Below are positions 128 to 19,526 of a DNA stretch of 30,695 nucleotides, in pieces. Numbering within the stretch: the stretch's first letter is position 1; each line of letters starts with the position of its first letter. Below the pieces are notes generated by a model. The model was given only the letters and a program-made list of their open reading frames with translations, made no database searches and was not told where the DNA came from. The DNA is from a virus. The DNA lies in the IMG/VR virus record IMGVR_UViG_3300011114_000294, positions 1 to 30,695 of that record; one strand, 5' to 3'. A program made the position numbers and the translations under genes.

Positions 128-736
128 GCTCAAGCTGCTGTAGTTAATGGCATTAAATCTCTGCCATCAGATATAGAAGTAACACTACTTAAGCAAGTGG
201 TAGAGACTACCTACATGCAGCTCTCTATAAAAGATTGGCAGAATGCCTTCCTTTACAACGCTATAGGTAAAGACTTTGAGCGAGTAGATGCATTTAACTT
301 ATTTAGCGTGGCGTTTATGAGTGATGTATTCAAACGCTATCAGGAGTATAAGAGCAAAGTATGGCGAGAGCTAAATAAGGTGCTTATACTACCTGAAGCT
401 GAGCCACAACATGTAGAAGCTACTGATCCACTAACTGCGCTTAACCAAGATGTTCAAAGGTGGCAAGAGGGAAAGGAGACCTGGGTAGAAATATCTGCAC
501 CTTACAACTGCCAAAGATTATTCAGGCAGGGCATCTATAAGAAATCGGAATGGGATGCAGAAGTATGGGCTCGCTTTGATGACTTAGCAAAGCAAAAGAC
601 TGAGTCTAAATTTAAAGCTTCTAATAGAGTAGTGTTAGGCCCATCTGCACAAGAGGAATTTGATAACTACCAAAAGATAGAGCTGAGCAGATTAATTTAC
701 ATAGACATCATTAAAAAAATAATTAAAGAATCATGA
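2..736 (+). CDS. Hypothetical phage protein (5' end lies across the junction)
   Basis: This is the main body of a gene whose true ATG is at 30561 at the other end of the window. Joined, the protein starts MSKELAASVQQS and has about 246 residues. A TTG at position 5 could be taken for a start but is not needed. The protein is soluble, helical and charged, with no recognisable catalytic motif. Its last codons overlap the next ATG (733) by 4 bp (ATGA), so the two are probably translationally coupled. It follows a DnaT-like gene and precedes a GP88-like gene, so a role in replication or early takeover is plausible. No function is assigned. Confidence 0.85.
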   Translation, partial: ELAASVQQSFSRSLSAEEKAIAACISSPKLSSLSEQEFRELIAQAAVVNGIKSLPSDIEVTLLKQVVETTYMQLSIKDWQNAFLYNAIGKDFERVDAFNLFSVAFMSDVFKRYQEYKSKVWRELNKVLILPEAEPQHVEATDPLTALNQDVQRWQEGKETWVEISAPYNCQRLFRQGIYKKSEWDAEVWARFDDLAKQKTESKFKASNRVVLGPSAQEEFDNYQKIELSRLIYIDIIKKIIKES

Positions 737-1170
737 AATCACTAACATTGCAGGAAGATGGTACATACCTTTTTGAAGATTTAAAATTAACTCGTGAGAA
801 ATATGAGAAATTTCAAAAGAGCATGCTTAAAGAACTGTCTAAAAAGAAGTATGACGGCAAGGTAATTAGAATCCATTTAGATGGAGACTTTGCAAGCACA
901 GATAATCTTTATGTGTGGCAACATATTGCAAGCTGTCATGAGTATAATCCAGCTTATCAGCCTTTAATTACTTTTTATACATTTACAAAAAGAGTAGAAA
1001 GCCATCAGATATTAAGAAATATATTTGGATGGCCAAGTAATTTTTATGTAGTCTATAATCTTGGAGGTACACAAGACAATTTAATTGATTTAGATACTGA
1101 TGCTCATACTGGTAAATTTAACAGCTATGATGATTTAGTAAAAGCTAACTATAAAGTAAAAACAAGATGA
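733..1170 (+). CDS. GP88-like protein lacking the Cys-rich N-terminal half
   Basis: The 145-residue protein contains a stretch at about residues 45-115 (RIHLDGDF, then VWQHI, then FYTFTKR, then NLGGT). This resembles the C-terminal half of the phage gene-88 family, which shows R-H-x-x-GDF, a YTKS/YTR segment and a later GG. Known members are longer and carry an N-terminal CPxxTxxC...CYA cluster, which is absent here. It may therefore be a minimal or truncated member. It starts on the ATGA overlap with the upstream gene and overlaps the downstream HTH gene by 4 bp. The assignment rests on remembered motifs and is tentative; the reading frame itself is secure. Confidence 0.7.
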   Translation: MKSLTLQEDGTYLFEDLKLTREKYEKFQKSMLKELSKKKYDGKVIRIHLDGDFASTDNLYVWQHIASCHEYNPAYQPLITFYTFTKRVESHQILRNIFGWPSNFYVVYNLGGTQDNLIDLDTDAHTGKFNSYDDLVKANYKVKTR

Positions 1171-6900: not shown

Positions 6901-6990
6901 TTTTGCACAAATTAACTGAGTGACATTTTTATTTATAGATTTGTCATAGGGTGGTATTACTGTTAGTACTTTGAATAAGGTTTTTTATAC

Positions 6991-7035
6991 GCCCTTTGGA
7001 TGTTCTCACCCTGCATCCTTAGGGCTATATTTTTT
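6991..7035 (+). terminator. Hairpin plus T-rich tract after the sigma operon
   Basis: GCCCTTTGGATG (6991-7002) pairs with CATCCTTAGGGC (7014-7025), interrupted by a TT/TT internal loop, and TATATTTTTT follows. It looks like a Rho-independent terminator for the 5339-6900 operon. It could also be an attenuator in front of the structured region. Confidence 0.65.
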
Positions 7036-7073
7036 ACAGAGGGAAGCGTTTAACAGCAGTGTAAAGAATGAAT

Positions 7074-7309
7074 TGAGCTACTGCGGGATAGTAACACAGC
7101 TCAGGGGTATGGCTAAGGTATAAGCCCCAGGTTACTTAGGGATGGCAATATCTCTAAAAGGTAGATACCATGTTAGTGCACATTGCTGATGACACTAATT
7201 CATGATGGCGAAGCACTCAAGCGACAAGCATGAGAACAGTCATTTAAATGAGAGCCTAACACATTGAGTAATCTTTGTGCTAGGATACTTCTATCTCTCA
7301 TTTAGCTCA
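7074..7309 (+). ncRNA. Candidate structured RNA (unrecognised class)
   Basis: This gene-free stretch contains several consecutive helices. TGAGCT (7074-7079) pairs locally with AGCTCA (7098-7103). GGGGTAT (7104-7110) pairs with ATA..CCCC (7120-7128). TTAGGGAT (7136-7143) pairs with ATCTCTAA (7150-7157). TTAGTG (7173-7178) pairs with CACTAA (7193-7198), with extra pairing outside. AAATGAGAG (7246-7254) pairs with CTCTCATTT (7295-7303) around an inner CCTAACACA/TGTGCTAGG stem (7255-7263/7276-7284). In addition, TGAGCTA (7074-7080) is perfectly complementary to TAGCTCA (7303-7309), giving a possible closing helix that competes with the first hairpin. No tRNA, tmRNA or intron core was recognised. 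It could be a trans-acting RNA, a packaging RNA or a long leader of the downstream genes. Confidence 0.5.
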
Positions 7310-7327
7310 GCATCTAAGCTCTAAGCA

Positions 7328-7344
7328 TTAAGTTAATTAGCTAA
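7328..7344 (+). repeat. 17-bp repeat, copy 2
   Basis: TTAAGTTAATTAGCTAA is identical to 5313-5329. It lies about 70 bp before the first gene of the next block and partly overlaps the inverted repeat at 7334-7361. Confidence 0.55.
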
Positions 7345-7361
7345 AAGCTTATAGCTAATTA
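7334..7361. repeat. Perfect 10-bp AT-rich inverted repeat
   Basis: TAATTAGCTA (7334-7343) is the reverse complement of TAGCTAATTA (7352-7361), with an 8-base loop. It lies between the structured region and the ATG at 7414. It is followed by a short tandem repeat, TTACTAATC twice (near 7386-7403). It may be an operator. Confidence 0.6.
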
Positions 7362-7413
7362 CACTAAGCAATATGCATAAGCTAATTACTAATCTTACTA
7401 ATCTTAACTATAA

Positions 7414-7563
7414 ATGACTGATAATAAATATAACTTTTTAAAGGCTCAAGTAAAAGTGTTTTATCCTAACTGGACTGAAGAGCAAGTAAACAAAGAATGT
7501 GAGAAGATACTAAATGCAGGTGAGGGTGCTGAAGATGAGGACTGCCTTTATTGTGGATCGTAA
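7414..7563 (+). CDS. Small hypothetical protein with C-terminal CxxC
   Basis: A 49-residue frame runs from ATG 7414 to TAA 7561-7563 (MTDNKYNFLKAQVKVFYPNW...). It is acidic towards the end and finishes with CLYCGS, a possible half zinc site. It is preceded by an A-rich leader (TTAACTATAA). Its credibility comes from protein-like composition (FYPNWTEEQVNKECEKIL) and from filling an otherwise empty gap. It is the first gene after the structured region. Function unknown. Confidence 0.65.
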   Translation: MTDNKYNFLKAQVKVFYPNWTEEQVNKECEKILNAGEGAEDEDCLYCGS

Positions 7564-7603: not shown

Positions 7604-7846
7604 ATGCAATGTAATATAACATTTGACTTAGACTCACCCGAAGATGCAGCTCACCATCTGAGATGCACTAAAGCTTTAGACTTAGCGCTGTGCCTAAATG
7701 AGTTCAATACTCAGTTATTATCTCAGCTTAAGTACGATGAGCTATCAGGTAAAGAAAAGATATTACTGTCTAGAGTGAATGAGTTACTTCAAGAGACTAT
7801 GGAAGAGTATGGCATTCACTTAGAAGAGCTTTGCAGATGCTATTAA
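7604..7846 (+). CDS. Small hypothetical protein
   Basis: The 80-residue acidic protein starts ITFDLDSPEDAAHHLRC and is otherwise helical. The start is supported by an A-rich leader containing ATCAATAATCAAT (7573-7585). I recall this N-terminal pattern (a D-P/S-x-D segment followed by M/H-x-R-C) in other Bacteroidota phage proteins but know no function. It overlaps the next gene by 16 bp. It lies ahead of the TerS-like and tail chaperone genes. Confidence 0.8.
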   Translation: MQCNITFDLDSPEDAAHHLRCTKALDLALCLNEFNTQLLSQLKYDELSGKEKILLSRVNELLQETMEEYGIHLEELCRCY

Positions 7847-8190
7847 TACCAGCACAGCTTGAATCAGTAGGCACGCGGAAAGATAAGACTCTTAAACTTA
7901 CCTTTGGTACTAACGAGCTCACACCAGCACAAGCTGCTGAACTGTTCGGTACAGCCAATCAGTTCGGTTACTTAGCTTTTAAAGATGAGAGCTTCAGGAA
8001 AGAAGAGTTAGATGCTGTAGAATCGCTTAAATCAGAGTTAGAAGATACTCTCAAAAAGCCATCGCAGAGATTGAGGGGTATTTTATTCAGATGCTATGAG
8101 GCTGATAGTGAAGGATTTGTTACATTTGCTAAATACTATGATAGCAAGATGGAGCAGTTAATAACACACTTTAAGAATAAGTTAGCATGA
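7831..8190 (+). CDS. Hypothetical protein upstream of TerS
   Basis: The 119-residue protein opens with a beta-rich part (KTLKLTFGTNELTPAQAAEL) and continues as helices with a PSQRLRGILFRCYE segment near residues 77-90. It has no signal peptide or membrane span and no motif known to me. The frame overlaps the upstream gene by 16 bp and the TerS-like gene by 4 bp. A start at ATG 7837 (MLLIPAQL) is equally possible. Position suggests a DNA-packaging or morphogenesis accessory. Confidence 0.8.
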   Translation: MQMLLIPAQLESVGTRKDKTLKLTFGTNELTPAQAAELFGTANQFGYLAFKDESFRKEELDAVESLKSELEDTLKKPSQRLRGILFRCYEADSEGFVTFAKYYDSKMEQLITHFKNKLA

Positions 8191-9351: not shown

Positions 9352-11766
9352 ATGAGCACAATTAACTACACATACAACGTAATAGTAGATAGGTTTAGAC
9401 AATTCGCTGAGGGACACTTTCAGCTGCGTAGGTTTACGCATGGTGAGATTAGCCAAGCCGATTTAGAGAAAGAGGCAGAGTGGCCATGGCTACACGTTAA
9501 GCCACGTGCTATTAACTATGCACCAGGTACGAGAGCATTCAGCTTTGAGATATTCATCTCAGACCTACCTCGCGATAAAGAAGATAAGACAGGATACCAA
9601 GCGGAGAGTATTACCGACTGCTCACTAATCTTCCAAGACTTAATCAACGAGATTTACTTGGGCAATATGTTTGGAGATCAGGTAGTGCTTAGCAGGCCTG
9701 TAAACTCTGAGCCATTTGTTGAGCAGTATACTCATACGTTAACGGGAGTTACCGGAACTATTGAGCTTAACTTAGATTACGATTGGAGCGCATGCTCTAT
9801 CCCTGCAAGCTGGAATTATAACACGCCTACTGATTCGCCATCGGATGGATGGGGAGCACTTCAGTTTATTGAGAGCTTAGATCAAAATGGAGTATTTGTT
9901 AGCTTGCTTAATGACTTAGAAGCACCGGGTAACTCTTACTACTATGGTACTGATGCGGAAGGTATAAAGGGATGGTATGCTATAGTAGATAATATCGGCC
10001 TCACTTGTGAGACTCTACCTGATTGCGCTACCATTATTTCTATAGTAGATGACATAGCAGCGCTGCAAACTGATGTAGCTTTAAAAGCTAACATAGCTGA
10101 TTTAGGAGCTGTAGCTTTTAGCAACGATTATAATGATTTAGATAACAAGCCTACTATTCCTCCTGCAATAACTAACACAAGTGAATTAGTTAATGATGGA
10201 GAGGATGGCATTAACCCATTTATCACAGCATTAGATGTACCTGCTCAGGTTAACGCAGATTGGAACGCAGTTAGTGGAGTAGCGGAGATACTTAACAAAC
10301 CTACGATACCAACATCATTACCACCAACAGGAACGGCAGGTGGTGACTTGAGCGGTACTTATCCTAATCCAAACGTATCTCGCATTCATGGCGTCGATAT
10401 GCAGAGCGGAACACCTTCAACTAACGATACTTGGGTATACGGTGGCTCACCTGCTAAATGGCAACACCAACACCTCAACGCTTCGCAAGTAGACAACGAT
10501 TCAAGTGTAACAGGTGCAACGGTTAAACTTGCACTGGAGCATTTAGATAGCAGTAAACAAGCGACACTTGGTTTCACTCCAGTAACCAACGCGAGAACTA
10601 TTACCATCAACGGTACAACGCAAGACTTATCAGCTAACAGAACATTCATGATAGCGACTAATGCAGGAACAGTTACAAGCGTAGCAGCGCTAACGTTAGG
10701 CACAACGGGAACAGATTTAAGCAGCACCGTTACAAATGGAACAACAACGCCTGTAATAACGCTCAACGTACCTACTGCAAGCGCAACGAATAGAGGGGTG
10801 TTGAGTTCAACAGATTGGTCTACGTTTAACGGAAAGTTTACACTACCTTCTTTGACAAGTGGAAGTGTTCTATTCAGCAATGGAACAACCATAGCGCAGA
10901 ACAACGCTAACTTCTTTTGGGATAATACTAATTCAAGGTTGGGTATTGGTAGTGCTGCTCCCGTTTCAAGACTTTCAGTAGTAGATTCATCAAACACAGT
11001 AGCGAGTCTTACGGCTAACGCTGCATCTCATTTTAATATTTCACGAGGAACATCAGGAGTTACTAATTTAGTCTTTACTATTTCAAGTGTTTCTCCTAAT
11101 ACAGCAGCAATACAGCACAGACATTCTAACATTGATGGCATCGGTTATCCTCTTGCTATCAATCCATTAGGGGGTAATGTTCAAATCGGCACAACAACAG
11201 ACGCAGGGTTCAAGCTCGATGTGAATGGGACTACTCGTCTAAATGGATTAAGTTCTATTAATGGAGTAGGAGTAGCGAATACTGCTTTAGCTGTGTATGG
11301 TAATGGTAATGGAGCAGGTAACTATCTATTCAGAATGTACGATGCAAGTTCGGTGCAAAGATTCTTTTTAACAGCAAGTGGTAACTTTCAAATGTCAAGC
11401 GCAACGGATACAGGAACCAGTGGAGACGATGAAAAATTTAGACTTGCTTTAGCATTTGCACCAACAAGCGGAACGCGTAACCACTACGGGTTATACATTA
11501 CACAAACAATCAACCAAACAGGTGGAGCGAATGGAATTACAAGAGGTCTTTACATCAATCCAACGCTAACGGCAGCAGCAGATTTCAGAGCAATTGAAGT
11601 AGCAAATGGAACAACTGTTTTAGCACCTTCAGTAACAGCGAGAGCATCTTTAAGAATACCAAGCGGAACAGCACCTACCTCACCCGTTAACGGTGACATT
11701 TGGTTTGACGGAACAAACATAAAAATGCAGATAGGCGGAGTAACAAAAACATTCACTTTAATATAA
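9352..11766 (+). CDS. Tail fibre-like protein with an unrelated structural N-terminal domain
   Basis: The 804-residue protein looks modular. Residues 1 to about 160 form a mixed alpha/beta domain (for example WPWLHVKPRAINYAPGTRAF, then LIFQDLINEIYLG) that resembles a free-standing tail or connector protein. From about 235 it becomes fibre-like: KANIADLGAVAFSNDYNDL, DNKPTIP repeats, and GGDLSGTYPNPNV near 327-342. Gly/Thr/Asn-rich beta repeats follow (WDNTNSRLGIG, GFKLDVNGTT). The end, GDIWFDGTNIKMQIGG, is typical of phage fibre tips. It should form a trimeric receptor-binding fibre joined to the tail. Codon choice seems to shift in the fibre part (more ACG, AAC, GGA), consistent with module exchange. 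Confidence 0.85.
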   Translation: MSTINYTYNVIVDRFRQFAEGHFQLRRFTHGEISQADLEKEAEWPWLHVKPRAINYAPGTRAFSFEIFISDLPRDKEDKTGYQAESITDCSLIFQDLINEIYLGNMFGDQVVLSRPVNSEPFVEQYTHTLTGVTGTIELNLDYDWSACSIPASWNYNTPTDSPSDGWGALQFIESLDQNGVFVSLLNDLEAPGNSYYYGTDAEGIKGWYAIVDNIGLTCETLPDCATIISIVDDIAALQTDVALKANIADLGAVAFSNDYNDLDNKPTIPPAITNTSELVNDGEDGINPFITALDVPAQVNADWNAVSGVAEILNKPTIPTSLPPTGTAGGDLSGTYPNPNVSRIHGVDMQSGTPSTNDTWVYGGSPAKWQHQHLNASQVDNDSSVTGATVKLALEHLDSSKQATLGFTPVTNARTITINGTTQDLSANRTFMIATNAGTVTSVAALTLGTTGTDLSSTVTNGTTTPVITLNVPTASATNRGVLSSTDWSTFNGKFTLPSLTSGSVLFSNGTTIAQNNANFFWDNTNSRLGIGSAAPVSRLSVVDSSNTVASLTANAASHFNISRGTSGVTNLVFTISSVSPNTAAIQHRHSNIDGIGYPLAINPLGGNVQIGTTTDAGFKLDVNGTTRLNGLSSINGVGVANTALAVYGNGNGAGNYLFRMYDASSVQRFFLTASGNFQMSSATDTGTSGDDEKFRLALAFAPTSGTRNHYGLYITQTINQTGGANGITRGLYINPTLTAAADFRAIEVANGTTVLAPSVTARASLRIPSGTAPTSPVNGDIWFDGTNIKMQIGGVTKTFTLI

Positions 11767-12771: not shown

Positions 12772-14051
12772 TGGCTATTACAATACAGCAGCAGCCCTAC
12801 ATATTTACAGCACTTAAGCAAAAGCTAATAGTAGTGGCTACATCTACAAACATCGGGCAGCCTGGCTTTCGCTATGTGATAACGGTAAGCAATGGCACTA
12901 CTACTAATGTCTTTTACGTGCAGCCTAATCTCAATGGCGCTCTAGTATTTGACCTTTATCCTGTAGTCTATTCGAAGATGGATTTAGGAGTAAACAGCTC
13001 AGATGCTGTGCCTTCTCTATTTGCATCCATAACGGTGCAAGATGCTGCTACATCACGTAATATTTTGGGCATTAGCACAACTATACAAGAGGGTTATGAA
13101 GTACTTGGCTTATTCGAAGTACAGGCTACTGAATACCCATTAGATGGCAGCGCACTTATTAATGCAGCGTTTCAGATTAGTGATGGCTTTAATCCTGATC
13201 CATCTGATTACTTTGCATTAGATGGCAGCAGTAGTCAAATCATGAGTGATTTATATCGAAGCACCTATGCTATGGATGATGTATTAAGCCAATACTCATT
13301 AGGCGCTAAGACGATAGGCATAACAGCTTTTTCTGATGACTACGGAGTGCTTACTATTCCTGCTGATGATGGCTCAACTTTAACGGGTAACGCAATAGAT
13401 GACGTGCAGATAATTCAATTTAATGCAGCAGGCATACCTATTCAGACCGACACGCTAGCCTGCGTAATTGCAGCGGGAACTATTAACCATCTTCCTCTCT
13501 TACCGGCTAATATTAATGATGTTTTTGGATTAGATGCAGATTGGCATCACTACTTACTTAACTTTAGAACTTCAGGCGGTGCGCCATGCGCTCGCTCAAT
13601 AGCTGTATTCAAAGCAGAAGATGAATGCAGATTCGATAAGGTAAGATTAGGCTGGACTAATAGCCGAGGTGGATGGGACTATTTCAATTTTACTAAACGC
13701 AGTGAGGAATCTTACTCAGTGGAGCGCAAGCGCTACAGAAAGGTAGTAGGTAACTACGGCACAGCAGATGAAACTACAGCATTTGGGTTTAACACTTACG
13801 ATAGAGGGTTAACTGAGCGTACTCCATTTGTAGAGAAGATGCTTAGAGTTAGAACTGATTTCTTAACTGAGGGACAGTTTGAATACCTTAAGAATCTTAT
13901 CTACTCCGAATCAGTATACATCATTAATCCTGATGGCTCAGCTACTCCCGTAGTAATAGATAGTAATAACTATACAGCTATTAAAACGCGTAGCTACGTT
14001 AAGAATGATTTAGAATTGATGTTAAAATTCAGTAACGACTATACAGCATGA
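12771..14051 (+). CDS. Tail/baseplate structural protein
   Basis: The 426-residue protein is rich in beta strands, Gly, Ser, Thr and Asp. Its C-terminal half has LGWTNSRGGWDYFNFTKRSE near residues 297-316. This is like a recurring segment in distal-tail or baseplate proteins of Bacteroidota phages that I recall, with an N-x-x-G-G-x-D-x-F core. The end has a SESVYIINPDG turn. It overlaps the previous gene by 1 bp and the next by 4 bp, so it is cotranslated with the large baseplate protein. It has no signal peptide or membrane span. Probably a baseplate hub component; the exact role is not established. Confidence 0.7.
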   Translation: MAITIQQQPYIFTALKQKLIVVATSTNIGQPGFRYVITVSNGTTTNVFYVQPNLNGALVFDLYPVVYSKMDLGVNSSDAVPSLFASITVQDAATSRNILGISTTIQEGYEVLGLFEVQATEYPLDGSALINAAFQISDGFNPDPSDYFALDGSSSQIMSDLYRSTYAMDDVLSQYSLGAKTIGITAFSDDYGVLTIPADDGSTLTGNAIDDVQIIQFNAAGIPIQTDTLACVIAAGTINHLPLLPANINDVFGLDADWHHYLLNFRTSGGAPCARSIAVFKAEDECRFDKVRLGWTNSRGGWDYFNFTKRSEESYSVERKRYRKVVGNYGTADETTAFGFNTYDRGLTERTPFVEKMLRVRTDFLTEGQFEYLKNLIYSESVYIINPDGSATPVVIDSNNYTAIKTRSYVKNDLELMLKFSNDYTA

Positions 14052-17000
14052 GAGCAGAAGTATTGTTAACAGTAACGGCTTCTAATGGAGCTGCTACCTT
14101 AGTAGACCTATACGAGAATGAGAGCATCAGTTACTCTTCTAACTTTAACAGCGTTTCTGAGTTCACAACTAGGGGAGCTTTCTCGCGTGAATTTAGAATC
14201 CCTGCTACAGATAATAACGTGGCTTTCTTTGGGCAGCAATACAGCCCAAGCTTACTGAATAATGACACTACTCAGATTAATGTATTACGTAAAATAGATG
14301 CAACGCTATCAGTTAACACTTTACCCATTGCTGAAGGACACATCCAATTTAAGCAGACAGTAACGCATCAGGATAAAGTACATGAATTCGTTATAGCATT
14401 CTTTGGTGAAACAGTAGACTTAGCGAGAAGTATTGGAGATAAGCTGATAAGTGAATTAGACTATACTGATTTAGCCCATGAGAATAGCTATGAGAATGTA
14501 AACTTAATTAATGATGGTAGCTTATTTGATAATGCTATCTGCTATACGCTCACAGATAAGGGGCAGAATTGGAGTGAGGATACAACAGTAACAAGCCGAA
14601 GAGTATTTAGCTCAGTTAATCCTATCTATACCGGAGAGCTTACGCTAGCTGTTCAGGCTAAGTGGCTATTGAATAAGATTATCACAGAGGCAGGCTTTAC
14701 CTACAGCGGAGATACGCTGAATGCAGAGCTTGAGAGAATGTATATTCCTTACGTTACTAATCCTTTAACGCTCGGCCCATTAGCTCAAGATGAAGCTAAA
14801 TTTTTAGCAGCATTTGCAGGAGGCTCTACATCAGTTACTATAAATACTGCTGCTCCAAATGGGCAAACTAAAAAACAACTTACAGGATGGACTGAAGCAA
14901 CTGATCCGAGCGGTAGTTTTGCTTCTGATGTTTATACATCACAAGGTAACTTTAATGCAACTTTTTATATTAATGCTAATTTTACAGTACCTGGTGCTGT
15001 AGCATTTGCACAGAATGCTTATGACTTTGTATTAGGAGTTACAAGAGCAGGAGCAGAAACACTTTACCCAATGGGGCAAGGTCAAGGTATTTCAGATACG
15101 GTATTAGAATATGACTTTACAACAGGGCAATATATTCAATCTCCTGTAGATCCTGTAGTATACGCTACCTACACTTTAGATATGCAAGTAGGTGACGAGA
15201 TACGTTACTATGTTTATGCTCATGCAGGTAGCACGCAAACTATTGTATTTGGATTTAACTGTACTATAGGCGTTTCATTTGTAACAGGAGAGCTACAGGC
15301 GCAGCCTGTGAGCTTTATTAAGAACGCTCCCGAACTTAAGCAAGTAGATTACTTGCGAGATATTCTTAAGATGTTTAATGCTGTATTAGTTCCTAATCCA
15401 AACATGCCTAACGCTGTTGAGATTATACCAATGGTGGAGTATTTGGGTAGCGGTGCTGATTACGATTGGACAGGTAAACTAGACTTATCTAAGGACATCA
15501 CACTTACTCCAGCATCAGACGTAAGAAAGCGCCTACTTAAATGGAGCTATAAAGAGCAGGGAGATGTATTTAATGCTAAGTATAAAAGTGGAGCTCAGAG
15601 AGTTTATGGAGAGCTGAGGTTAACCGATGCAGGAAATGATTTTAGTACAAGTGATTTTACAGTAGAGTTAAACTTCGGAGCTTCTCCATGCGACCTTATC
15701 CCTAATACTAATTACATCATCCCGAAATACTTTAATGAGACCGGTGAATTTATGGCACCTGGGCCACGCATACTTTATATAAGAGCTTACTCCGAAAGTG
15801 CTGTAGTTATGGTATACGATGAGGTAGCTGAAGATGCGAGCTTTACAGTTATTCCTTTGCTATGCCACTACCAATCTGTACCAACTGAGATAGGTACCAA
15901 TGATTTAAACTTTGGCCAAGAGATACCTCCGCATCCAATAGAGGCCATGCCTCTTCACACACTTTTTGATAGATATTGGAGGCAGTACATAGCCGAGCTG
16001 TATGATGACGAGCAGAAAATAATGGAGGCTTACTTTCAATTAGGAGTAACTGATGTATTCGGCCTTAAGTTTAATGATAAGATTTGGGTAAAGGATTCAT
16101 GGTGGAGAGTAATAGAACTAACAGATTACATTGTAGCAGATGAGCAAGTAACTAAGTGCAAGCTTATGCGCTTACTTGACATCGGAGCGCTATGTCAATA
16201 CACTCCATCTACCATTAACGCAACTACAGGAGCTGTAAACTTCTTAGATTACGATGGAGATACAAGCAATGGATCACAAGAGTGCTGCGAGTTTTATGGT
16301 TATACTTGGAATTCAGGGAAGGGCCAATGCTTTGCATCTACAGGAACAAATGGCACAGGCGGGATAATTACCTCACCTAACAACATAGGCGGTAGCAATA
16401 TCACTAACACTAGTGGTAATCAGAAGAGCGCTACAGGTATGGGCAATGTAAATAGAGCCTCTATTGAAAACAATAACGAGCGCATTTTAGTTAGTGGTTT
16501 AGGTCATGGCATTAGCCCTAACAACAACTACAGCCAAGCGCTAGGCTATCGCAACTTCATTAGACCTAACTTAGAAGGCACTACAGTTATGGGCAGATGG
16601 GCAGAAGCTGATGTGAGAGGGGTGCACTTTGGTGGGGGTACGTGGTACGATGGAACATCAGACTTTGGAATAACTCTACCCGGTAGAAGCCAGCATGGAT
16701 TTATTCAGCTCATGGGCTTGGGTGAGCTTACTGCTAATCCAACTAACATAGATTTGTTGTTAGATGGCATTGATAACGGCACTATAGCTATGCCTACAGA
16801 AACGGTATGGATGGTTAAGGTATACATTTCAATCTTAGAATATCTTTATGGTAGCACTGACTTTACAGGCCGAGTAGCAAGCTTAGAATACAGCTCTATG
16901 ATTTGGAAAGATAAGACTACTCAATACAGCTCTACTCCAATTTTAGTTAATCAATTTAATAGTGGGTTTGGCGCGAGCTTATTTGATTTGTATTTGCCTA

Positions 17001-17116
17001 TTGTGAGTAACAAAATTGCTCCATACATAACAGCTAAAGTAGTAGGAAAAACAGCAGTAATAAGCGCAACGATTCAGTACACTCAATCTAAATTTCAACG
17101 CACCCCGATAATATGA
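14048..17116 (+). CDS. Large baseplate/tail protein with fibre-like C-terminus
   Basis: This 1022-residue protein is the largest in the genome. Residues 1 to about 250 look like a baseplate hub (FTTRGAFSREFRIPATDNN near 38-56). A segment at about 265-420 is a beta-rich Gly/Thr/Asn/Ala block that looks like an inserted domain. The hub-like part then resumes (ELKQVDYLRDILKMFNAVL) to about 720. After a Cys-containing stretch (SQECCEFYGYTW) and a Gly/Asn linker, the C-terminus reads like a fibre or peptidase-G2-type tip (ERILVSGLGHGISPNN, GYRNFIRPN). It starts on a 4-bp overlap. It probably forms the central baseplate and contacts the host surface. Confidence 0.8.
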   Translation: MRAEVLLTVTASNGAATLVDLYENESISYSSNFNSVSEFTTRGAFSREFRIPATDNNVAFFGQQYSPSLLNNDTTQINVLRKIDATLSVNTLPIAEGHIQFKQTVTHQDKVHEFVIAFFGETVDLARSIGDKLISELDYTDLAHENSYENVNLINDGSLFDNAICYTLTDKGQNWSEDTTVTSRRVFSSVNPIYTGELTLAVQAKWLLNKIITEAGFTYSGDTLNAELERMYIPYVTNPLTLGPLAQDEAKFLAAFAGGSTSVTINTAAPNGQTKKQLTGWTEATDPSGSFASDVYTSQGNFNATFYINANFTVPGAVAFAQNAYDFVLGVTRAGAETLYPMGQGQGISDTVLEYDFTTGQYIQSPVDPVVYATYTLDMQVGDEIRYYVYAHAGSTQTIVFGFNCTIGVSFVTGELQAQPVSFIKNAPELKQVDYLRDILKMFNAVLVPNPNMPNAVEIIPMVEYLGSGADYDWTGKLDLSKDITLTPASDVRKRLLKWSYKEQGDVFNAKYKSGAQRVYGELRLTDAGNDFSTSDFTVELNFGASPCDLIPNTNYIIPKYFNETGEFMAPGPRILYIRAYSESAVVMVYDEVAEDASFTVIPLLCHYQSVPTEIGTNDLNFGQEIPPHPIEAMPLHTLFDRYWRQYIAELYDDEQKIMEAYFQLGVTDVFGLKFNDKIWVKDSWWRVIELTDYIVADEQVTKCKLMRLLDIGALCQYTPSTINATTGAVNFLDYDGDTSNGSQECCEFYGYTWNSGKGQCFASTGTNGTGGIITSPNNIGGSNITNTSGNQKSATGMGNVNRASIENNNERILVSGLGHGISPNNNYSQALGYRNFIRPNLEGTTVMGRWAEADVRGVHFGGGTWYDGTSDFGITLPGRSQHGFIQLMGLGELTANPTNIDLLLDGIDNGTIAMPTETVWMVKVYISILEYLYGSTDFTGRVASLEYSSMIWKDKTTQYSSTPILVNQFNSGFGASLFDLYLPIVSNKIAPYITAKVVGKTAVISATIQYTQSKFQRTPII

Positions 17117-17310
17117 CAAATCCACAAAATGACATTATACTTAGTATGACTTTATTAAGGTCTAACGTGCAGGGCAAGAGCAAAGAGTTTAAGCAGGCTG
17201 TAGGCACTTACCATGCAAGGCGCAAGGTGTGGCAAATAAGAGCTATTAATTACACTATACTTATAGGAGTAATGGCATTAGTAGGATTAACAATTTACAG
17301 CGTAATATAA
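17113..17310 (+). CDS. Small single-span membrane protein
   Basis: The 65-residue protein has a basic helical N-terminal part (QGKSKEFKQAVGTYHARRK) and a C-terminal hydrophobic span at about 46-64 (NYTILIGVMALVGLTIYSVI). It overlaps the baseplate gene by 4 bp and touches the tape measure gene (1-bp overlap). A tail-associated protein that helps DNA cross the inner membrane is possible from its place beside the tape measure, but this is inference. Confidence 0.7.
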   Translation: MTNPQNDIILSMTLLRSNVQGKSKEFKQAVGTYHARRKVWQIRAINYTILIGVMALVGLTIYSVI

Positions 17311-19526
17311 TGGCTACACAAGAGATGATATTGAAGCTCTCGTTTGATGACGAGGGTACGTTCACAGGATTAGAAGATATTAATCAGGAGATAAAGAAAG
17401 TAGATGAATCTACGGTACACTTAGAGAAATCTACTAAGACACTTAAGGCACAATATGCTGAATTAAAGAAACAGCAAGATCAGACTGAGCTAGGCACTGA
17501 GAAATTTAATCAGCTATCCATTAAGATGGGTGAGCTGAAGGATAGAATGAATGATGCAGCGGAAGCTGTTAAAGGAAATACAGGTCCTGCTATCGAAGGT
17601 ATGAGCAATACTTTCGGCATCATGGGTGACCAGCTGAGTAACTTAGACTTTGAAGGATTAACTCAATCCATTCAGACCTTTAGCGGTAACTTATCTCGCA
17701 TAGATACTAAGGCGCTAGCGGGTGGAATGAAAGCAGCTTTTCAAGCGGGTATAGCAGGAGCAAAAGCTTTAGCTGTTACGCTTTATAAGAATCCTATCTT
17801 CATTTTAGTGGGTGTGCTTATAGCTGTTATTGCATATTGGGAAGAGCTCAGCGACTTTGTTACCGGAAAGAGCAGAATGCTTGAGAATCTGAATAAGCAA
17901 GTAGAGGCTTTAAAAGCACAAGAGCAAGCGTTAACACGTGAGCTAGCTTTACAAAAAGCTTTAGGTGCTGGAGGAGGGCAAATACTCAAGACTGAGTTAG
18001 ACATCTTAAAGAACAAACAATATCAGGCAGAGGCTGCCATGAAAATAGCATATCTTGAAAAGGATAAAGCAAAGTTTTTAGAGGCACAGCAAGCGCAGCT
18101 AACAGCTATTAACGACCTTGAGCTAAGAAAAATTAAAGTTTATACAGATACTAAAGCTTTATTAGATAAGATTCGTGCGGGTAAGAATGATGAGTATAAT
18201 AAACAGCTTTTGCAGAATGAAGCTTTCAGTGTATTTAAGAATCAAACTGAGCAAATAGCTTTACAACAAAAAGACCTTAACGCGCAGTCTACTGATTTGG
18301 CTTTGCAAATGCAAAGAGCTCAGCAGGCAGGAAATAAAGCTTTAGAAGAAAAGTTAAGATTGCAAAGAGAAGGCTTGCTTAATCATGTTAAAGACCTTCA
18401 GGGGCAAAAGGATGAGATTTGGAATGCAGGAATGCAGGCTCAAGCTGAGGTAAAGACTGAGAAAGAATTAGAAGCTATTGCTGCACGTAAAGCAAAGCAA
18501 GCAGAGCGCAAAAGCGCAGCAGATGCAGCAGCTAAAAAATTAGCAGATGAAATTATATCTATAGAGCAAAGAATGGTAGACATTCAACGCTCTACCATGC
18601 CTGATAAAGAGCGTGAAATCGTTATCTTACAGGAGAAGCAAGCAGAGGAATTAAAGACATTTCAAAAAGCTAAGAAAAGCGAATCTGAATTAGCTGCATT
18701 AAAAACAGCACATGCTACCGAGTTAAAAGTATTAACGGATAAATACGATAAAGAGGAAGCTGATAAAGCAGCTGAGAAATTGCTTAAGGAGAAAGAAGCA
18801 GCGCAAGAGAGATTACATAATAAACAGCAGGAGATAATAGATTTACAGGCTATTATAGATGCAGCGGATGAAGGTAATTTTCAAGCTACTTTAAGTAAGC
18901 AAGAGCAGGAGCTTATGGCTTCTCAAGACTATTACTTTCAACTTAAGACTGAAGCTGAAGCAGCAGGATTAGATGCTACTGCATTAACTGAAGAGCAAGC
19001 TCGTAAAGAGAATGAGATTAAAGAGAAATATAGAAAAGAAGATAGAGAAAAAAGAATGGCTAACATTCAATCTAATTTTGAAATGGCAGATCTTGCGCTT
19101 AGCGCTTTAATGGATTTAAACCAGGCAGCTGCTAAAGGAGATGAGGCAAGCCAGCGTAAGACATTTGAGAGAAACAAGTTAATGCAGAAAGCTCAAGCTA
19201 CTATAGCTATGGCTAGTGGAATTGTTCAACAGTTAGCTGTACCACAAGATCAGTTAAAAGGAACAAACTTTATTAAAGCAGCAGCTATAGCAGCAGCAGG
19301 GATAGCTAACATAGTTAAAATTAATCAAACTCAATTTGGCGGTGGTAGCACTCCGAGTTCAACTAATCTGAATGAGCCAACGGCTACCAATGCACCAGCT
19401 GTAGATTTCAGCGGAGCTAATATGCAAGTTAACGCACCAGGTAGCACAGAGACTTATGTATTAGCCGGCAACGTAGCTAACGCATTAGAGGCACGTCAAA
19501 AAATAATAGACCAATCACATTTATAA
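17310..19526 (+). CDS. Tape measure protein
   Basis: The 738-residue protein sets tail length. It has long heptad-rich, Lys/Glu/Gln/Ala coiled coil over residues 20-95 and about 185-640. A hydrophobic segment sits at 161-178 (NPIFILVGVLIAVIAYW), of the kind thought to enter the host membrane. The C-terminal tail is Gly/Asn/Thr-rich (GGGSTPSSTNLN). At about 1.5 angstrom per residue a tail of roughly 110 nm is expected, fitting a siphovirus. It sits downstream of the baseplate genes and upstream of the capsid block. The usual order places capsid first, so this arrangement is atypical. Confidence 0.9.
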   Translation: MATQEMILKLSFDDEGTFTGLEDINQEIKKVDESTVHLEKSTKTLKAQYAELKKQQDQTELGTEKFNQLSIKMGELKDRMNDAAEAVKGNTGPAIEGMSNTFGIMGDQLSNLDFEGLTQSIQTFSGNLSRIDTKALAGGMKAAFQAGIAGAKALAVTLYKNPIFILVGVLIAVIAYWEELSDFVTGKSRMLENLNKQVEALKAQEQALTRELALQKALGAGGGQILKTELDILKNKQYQAEAAMKIAYLEKDKAKFLEAQQAQLTAINDLELRKIKVYTDTKALLDKIRAGKNDEYNKQLLQNEAFSVFKNQTEQIALQQKDLNAQSTDLALQMQRAQQAGNKALEEKLRLQREGLLNHVKDLQGQKDEIWNAGMQAQAEVKTEKELEAIAARKAKQAERKSAADAAAKKLADEIISIEQRMVDIQRSTMPDKEREIVILQEKQAEELKTFQKAKKSESELAALKTAHATELKVLTDKYDKEEADKAAEKLLKEKEAAQERLHNKQQEIIDLQAIIDAADEGNFQATLSKQEQELMASQDYYFQLKTEAEAAGLDATALTEEQARKENEIKEKYRKEDREKRMANIQSNFEMADLALSALMDLNQAAAKGDEASQRKTFERNKLMQKAQATIAMASGIVQQLAVPQDQLKGTNFIKAAAIAAAGIANIVKINQTQFGGGSTPSSTNLNEPTATNAPAVDFSGANMQVNAPGSTETYVLAGNVANALEARQKIIDQSHL

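Follow-up and report, generated by a model that had tools for sequence, protein, structure and literature searches.

The locus studied here raises the question of what a phage does with a long, elaborately folded RNA that encodes no protein. It lies in the IMG/VR virus record IMGVR_UViG_3300011114_000294, whose 30,695 bases are called the window in the following. An initial annotation had marked a highly folded, non-coding region of ~330 nt as a candidate phage RNA. The genes of the window include those for a DNA methyltransferase, TerL, a VRR-NUC nuclease, an ECF-type sigma factor, TerS, a portal protein and a DnaA-C-domain protein; a tRNA was not found in it. The host is likely a member of the Bacteroidota, since the TerL of the window is nearest to those of Flavobacterium phage 11b (48%) and Cellulophaga phage phi10:1 (45%). 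We collected ~450 related loci by scanning viral contigs for TerL, by a portal scan, by two more TerL scans starting from diverged relatives and by pattern scans, and all sequences used are metagenomic with the exception of Acidovorax phage AP1. We distinguish clade 1, which includes the window (TerL 92-98% identical, with an outlying branch at ~82%), from clade 2, in which TerL is ~45% identical to that of the window and which alone has 550 TerL relatives among viral contigs.

Folding of positions 6982-7361 gave a minimum free energy of -111.2 kcal/mol, compared with -94.1 kcal/mol for dinucleotide shuffles (z = -3.24; 0 of 100 shuffles were as good). The RNA region holds no ORF of 60 aa or more, the longest overlapping one having 50 aa and a TTG start. 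The minus strand of the same interval folded equally well (z = -3.26), so that energy alone cannot assign the strand. Many of the changes observed in helices are G-U pairs when read on the plus strand and would be A-C mismatches on the minus strand, which identifies the plus strand as the correct one.

Covariation was found at two levels of divergence. Among 29 close relatives, 13 compensatory pairs were counted. In a core alignment of 32 distinct sequences from both clades, all 1169 cells of the 37 pairs were paired (100%), and 13 pairs had changed on both sides, in a total of 173 cells as compared with 68 in shuffles. When the partner was slid by 1-3 columns as a control, pairing was 38-51% with 0-1 both-side pairs. 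An unguided stem search on 57 sequences (identical rows removed; pairing in at least 90% of rows; ranking by both-side changes) recovered every helix described below for this RNA. Much of the change divides the two clades, so independent events are fewer than the cells counted; P2, P5 and P6 vary within clades too. Judged from these comparisons, ~6946-7335 is a conserved, structured and multiply pseudoknotted plus-strand RNA of ~390 nt, which we call type A to tell it from a second RNA, type B, introduced below. It forms a conserved block in 29 and in 57 distinct relatives and is present in at least 70 viral contigs across the two diverged clades, between which it is ~69% identical. The initial annotation was thus right about a folded, non-coding candidate RNA with many helices, at least five consecutive ones in its count: the fold is better than that of shuffled sequence and the helices covary. 

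The boundaries had to be moved. The RNA region is real, but conservation starts further upstream, at a promoter-like box, TAGATTTG (TAnnTTTG, 6936-6943, plus strand), which stands immediately 5' of the RNA and which we take to be of the Bacteroidota -7 promoter type. The start of the RNA was placed from this box and the adjoining pseudoknot, its end from the loss of conservation at about 7330-7340. As a bare motif the box is not more frequent in the window than expected by chance; in an alignment that was not selected for it, TA.ATTTGT is invariant in 29 type A and 31 type B relatives.

The loop of hairpin 1 pairs with the bases that immediately follow the box, an interaction that had been overlooked and that we call PK1. 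In the window AGGGUG (6948-6953) pairs with CACCCU (7007-7012), both on the plus strand. Across 124 sequences of types A and B, comprising 73 haplotypes, PK1 was formed by 39 distinct complementary helices, such as AGGGUG/CACCCU, AUGUGUGA/UCACACAU, AUGCGC/GCGCAU and GUCAAAC/GUUUGAC. The complementarity score was 20.0 for strands of the same sequence, 12.5 for cross-combined and 11.5 for shuffled ones. Hairpin 1 itself (6991-7025, plus strand; 6991-6995/7021-7025 and 6998-7002/7014-7018) has compensatory pairs and is kept in both clades. It had been described as a terminator-like hairpin (6990-7025), and a consensus scan does score it as such, yet it is one half of PK1. It belongs to the RNA because its loop pairs with 6948-6953, and the T run behind it supplies the 5' strand of P2.

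The remaining helices of type A are all on the plus strand. The P2 hairpin (7030-7068; 7030-7038/7060-7068) carries a loop motif in common with the Rfam family RF02932. P3 (7075-7102; 7075-7078/7099-7102), GAGC/GCUC in the window, was paired in 32 of 32 sequences, with A-U replaced by G-C in 14. It is crossed by P4 (7090-7136; 7090-7095/7131-7136; 100% paired, 3 both-side pairs), giving PK2. Within the P5 hairpin (7104-7128; 7104-7108/7124-7128; 3 both-side pairs), the loop bases GGUAU (7117-7121) pair with AUACC (7165-7169) to form PK3 (7117-7169). The type A core therefore contains two pseudoknots, the P3-P4 crossing and PK3. The latter, 100% paired with one both-side change (UA to AU), is the least supported among the three pseudoknots of type A. 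The P6 (7137-7156; 7137-7144/7149-7156) and P7 hairpins (7173-7198; 7173-7178/7193-7198) each have 4 both-side pairs. P8 (7246-7303; 7246-7252/7297-7303), which competes locally with a long-range stem discussed below, shows one both-side change (A-U to G-C) and otherwise little variation. Beyond the RNA follow a variable, AT-rich linker with AGCTAAT hairpins (7336-7413, plus strand), whose length differs among phages, and a 49-aa ORF (MTDNKYNFLKAQ..., 7414-7563, plus strand), the usual first gene 3' of the RNA. Counted in copies, its family was found downstream of the RNA in 31/33 type A and 32/33 type B cases of clade 1, and in 19/24 and 22/35, respectively, of clade 2.

In about half of the relatives this locus is occupied by another RNA, type B, which has the same box and the same PK1. 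Type B has an H-type pseudoknot of its own, in which CUGAGU/GCUCAG (with CCGCG, CUGCG and CUUCG variants) crosses AGUC/GACU or AGGC/GCCU; 96% of the cells were paired and 7 pairs had changed on both sides, compared with 23-38% pairing in slid controls. Its 3' end is formed by 57 U-rich bases, a tract that does not vary within the main branch of clade 1. Part of the type B sequences were fetched with this tract as pattern, which biases the count, and loci fetched by TerL carry the tract as well. In clade 2 the run-length layout of the tract is kept, G or A stands in place of the separator C, and one group has an additional GUG-CUUA-CAC tip. The tract (CTTTTTCTTTTCTTTCTTTTTCTTTTTACCTTTTTTCTTTTTCTTTCTTTTCTTTTG; L016, about 10610-10670, and all type B loci) is nearly mirror-symmetric (p ~0.012 in the commonest form, not significant in the clade 2 forms). 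We suggest that its strands might face each other or enter a triple helix. In likeness to the ENE/MALAT1 triple helices (e.g. PMC12501189), two U-rich strands could lie on either side of an A-rich one; in type B, however, this third strand was not identified, and the symmetry does no more than hint at such an arrangement. H-DNA is argued against by the C to G changes in the tract, albeit weakly, since a G that replaces C opposite another C will pair in any case. We also rejected two coding interpretations of type B: a lysine-rich product of the reverse strand, given that no start codon is conserved, indels break the frame and the tract is conserved at every position, and a forward frame, which stops interrupt in most relatives. 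A comparison of type B with Rfam gave no relative worth naming.

The two RNAs occupy the locus one at a time. Exactly one was found in 36 of 36 closed clade 1 intervals (19 type A, 17 type B), exactly one type in 20 of 20 longer records, and one RNA in 8 of the 9 clade 2 loci that have both flanking genes, the ninth (L312) having neither. For both types and in both clades, VRR-NUC, sigma factor and Zn-ribbon genes lie upstream, and the 49-aa ORF, g7831 and TerS downstream. A TerL tree of 46 phages requires at least 10 switches of the A/B label, 6 of them forced by well supported branches, and the type showed no correlation with the alleles of window genes, those for portal, TerL and TerS included. 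Transfer across clades was seen as well, since the type B body of the clade 2 locus L210 is nearly identical to that of clade 1. Because there is one RNA per locus, with repeated switches and no link to gene alleles, the two types seem to be two solutions of one task, and each phage seems to require one of them; PK1 would be their common part. It may well be, although we would not yet call it probable, that two unrelated classes of pseudoknotted RNA are functional equivalents which Bacteroidota phages exchange as cassettes behind a common PK1 and promoter. This would amount to a new RNA-based function with allelic RNA types, in which the RNA modifies the RNA polymerase or counters defences. 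Phage non-coding RNAs of comparable complexity are rare, and among those known to us there is no case of two unrelated RNAs alternating at one locus in genomes that otherwise resemble each other closely.

A few loci depart from this pattern. L312 (~265-1025, minus strand, from the Zn-ribbon gene to g7831) could form a pseudoknot of 7+9 bp, with UUGCCCC/GGGGCAA crossing ACUCGUUAA/UUAACGAGU, and is perhaps a third RNA type. IMGVR_UViG_3300034168_000141 (G004, 61,462 bases) is, on comparison of the type A and type B contig lists, the sole contig with both types; it has twice the usual length and two sigma factors (94% and 40%), and by these features it is two joined phages, either a chimera or a true hybrid. 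In L183 (796-932) a type B body and tract stand behind another gene, without box and PK1. L420 (7394-7744) has mismatched PK1 strands and is an apparent recombinant. Some phages have genes inserted right after the RNA, which we named from a reading of their sequences by eye: HNH (L025, L044, L054 and L210), HAD-like (L011, L039, L064 and L070) and ParB-like (clade 2, L334 and L355). The start codon of the HNH gene is a few bases past the type B tract, as though a homing gene had used the site, and the same pair of HNH gene and RNA occurs in L210.

The statement that no known class could be recognised holds at the curated cut-offs of Rfam: no Rfam 15 family reached its gathering cut-off in the window, tRNA and tmRNA included, and GOLLD, ROOL and pRNA gave no match. 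A distant relation to RF02932 (Betaproteobacteria-1) is detectable nonetheless, at 7029-7132 on the plus strand, with 29.9 bits against a gathering cut-off of 49.4 that it does not reach. The corresponding score in L313 was 31.7 bits. Over 20 records, the match at the RNA had 26-38 bits in 13 of 13 type A genomes (E 7e-5 to 2e-7 per genome), and the best score in a type B genome was 9.9 bits. The model covers just 120 positions, and positions 1-120 were matched in both the window and L313, P2 and P3 included, the last third of the alignment being interrupted by large internal gaps. RF02932 and type A have in common a P2 hairpin with the loop GUCGG..UUUAACGACAG, followed by P3 with the loop motif ACUGYGGGAU. 

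The RF02932 consensus alone led to Acidovorax phage AP1 (OM049504, 11856-11979), a true member with 93.4 bits, whose RNA sits in a gap behind a primase gene. Compared by eye, AP1 has P3 as GCUG/CAGC, a P4 pseudoknot GGGGC/GCCCC directly after CUGUGGGAUU, and P5 as AAGGG/CCCUU. Its GUCGGCAAUGGUUUAACGACAG ... ACUGUGGGAUU is nearly the GUCGGAAGCAAUUUAACGACAG ... ACUGUGGGAUU of clade 2 type A; downstream of GGGAU, the AP1 sequence permits the crossing helix. Hosts, GC content and place in the genome differ from those of type A. In the reverse search with a type A model, the AP1 site ranked first but was not significant (9.2 bits, E 0.64, filters off), and we therefore call type A a distant relative of RF02932 only and do not claim membership. 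Plasmids and E. coli genomes yielded nothing convincing for RF02932, and among the papers searched we found none discussing this RNA. Exact patterns of its core and of the type B tract gave 0 matches in 84,980 species genomes, so that the host is assigned no further than the phylum. Through the locus studied here, an orphan Rfam family gains a second, phage-borne context and well over 100 sequences for structure work. Given that the phages carrying it are common, the RNA is widespread, though BLAST finds no relative in a cultured phage: blastn searches of 50,697 phage records with types A and B returned none.

As to function, we lean, tentatively, towards type A as a cis-acting 5' leader of the packaging operon, with a put-like action on the polymerase or a protection of the message. 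Transcription would start at ~6946, possibly by the phage's own sigma factor, and the transcript would continue into the packaging operon, the RNA being its 5' leader. We infer both the start and this read-through. The latter is suggested because no second TAnnTTTGT box lies on the plus strand between the RNA and TerS, no terminator-like site lies right behind the RNA, and varied genes lie close downstream. The first of these genes is not always the 49-aa ORF but may be an HNH, HAD-like or ParB-like gene; in some type B phages it starts only a few bases past the RNA. This suits a leader acting independently of the gene that follows. Most simply, such a leader would modify the elongating polymerase, like the put RNA of phage HK022, or shield the 5' end of the message. 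The put RNA acts in cis on the polymerase from near the transcript start, whichever genes follow (PMC9378689). Its comparability to type A is one of position alone. The put RNA is short and simple, and an RNA of ~390 nt with three pseudoknots is far more elaborate, which is evidence against a leader. We also count against it that the RF02932 RNA of AP1 follows a primase gene, away from packaging genes. The same gene order would also arise from a discrete RNA that is cut from the leader or ends at a Rho-type site.

Close behind the leader, and possible in our view, comes such a discrete RNA acting in trans, an ornate RNA in the manner proposed for GOLLD, ROOL or OLE. It would be cut or terminated, owe its stability to its knotted ends, and act on components of the host or of a rival phage, types A and B being swapped through defence or competition. 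The very elaborate pseudoknotted fold speaks for it, as do the clean drop of conservation at ~7335 with a freely varying linker behind it, the repeated A/B exchange together with the cross-clade transfer of L210, and the relative at a different place in the unrelated phage AP1. Against it stands that the packaging operon always follows and that a terminator or processing site was not recognised. GOLLD and ROOL are large, elaborately folded RNAs of phages and prophages whose function is unknown (PMC12286853). GOLLD is often longer than 800 nt, and the two are usually found close to tRNA islands, whereas the window is without tRNA and without an Rfam match to them. The initial annotation had named a packaging RNA, a regulatory RNA and a switch-like leader as possibilities; these data are better explained by a leader or by a trans-acting RNA than by a packaging RNA.

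A riboswitch-like leader that controls the packaging genes through two states appears improbable. The perfect 7-bp pairing of 7074-7080 (UGAGCUA) with 7303-7309 (UAGCUCA) on which it was founded is present in the window, the local and the long-range fold are nearly equal in energy (-108.2 and -107.3 kcal/mol, a difference of ~1 kcal/mol), and none of the four strands varies in clade 1. In clade 2, however, UGAGCUA becomes AGGGCAA and the 3' strand stays UAGCUC, which costs the long-range stem 2 of its 7 pairs without compensation. The local partner changes in step, P3 passing from GAGC/GCUC to GGGC/GCCC, and P8 covaries too. The competition between the folds thus stands as far as energy is concerned, but covariation supports the local fold only, and the two exclusive folds of a switch do not both covary. 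Moreover, the arrangement has no counterpart in type B, and the genes downstream vary.

We consider a packaging RNA of the DNA motor very unlikely. Like the pRNA of phi29, type A is a structured phage RNA beside packaging genes, situated between TerL and TerS and a few genes upstream of the latter. Unlike that system, it has no match to the Rfam pRNA, the phage possesses a TerS, and two unrelated RNAs would have to serve one motor, their type being independent of the portal, TerL and TerS alleles. That the region is a stable fold by chance without any RNA function, for which one could cite that energy does not separate the strands, can be dismissed as already refuted by covariation, given 100% pairing and 13 both-side changes as compared with 38-51% in slid controls, and 39 different PK1 helices.

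The surroundings of the RNA offered some further observations. In L034, L045, L057 and L021 another conserved, structured-looking non-coding stretch lies past the 49-aa ORF, CTCCTACTCAGAAATGAGCGCC...CGAGCTAAAGTCGGGTATTAAATC followed by repeated TATTATAGTTTTTTTCGATTGTAATCC; this stretch, for example at 13830-14000 in L057, had no Rfam match. The protein g7831 (117 aa, window 7837-8190) is ~80% identical between the clades despite a TerL identity of only ~45%, and has a 39% homologue in Cellulophaga phage phi19:1. Considered as a possible partner protein, it gave an uninformative AlphaFold model (pLDDT 47). Three large proteins of the window had no PHROG or Pfam match (9352-11766, 804 aa; 14048-17116, 1022 aa; 17310-19526, 738 aa), and the last of them varies strongly among relatives (8-82%), as receptor-binding proteins do.
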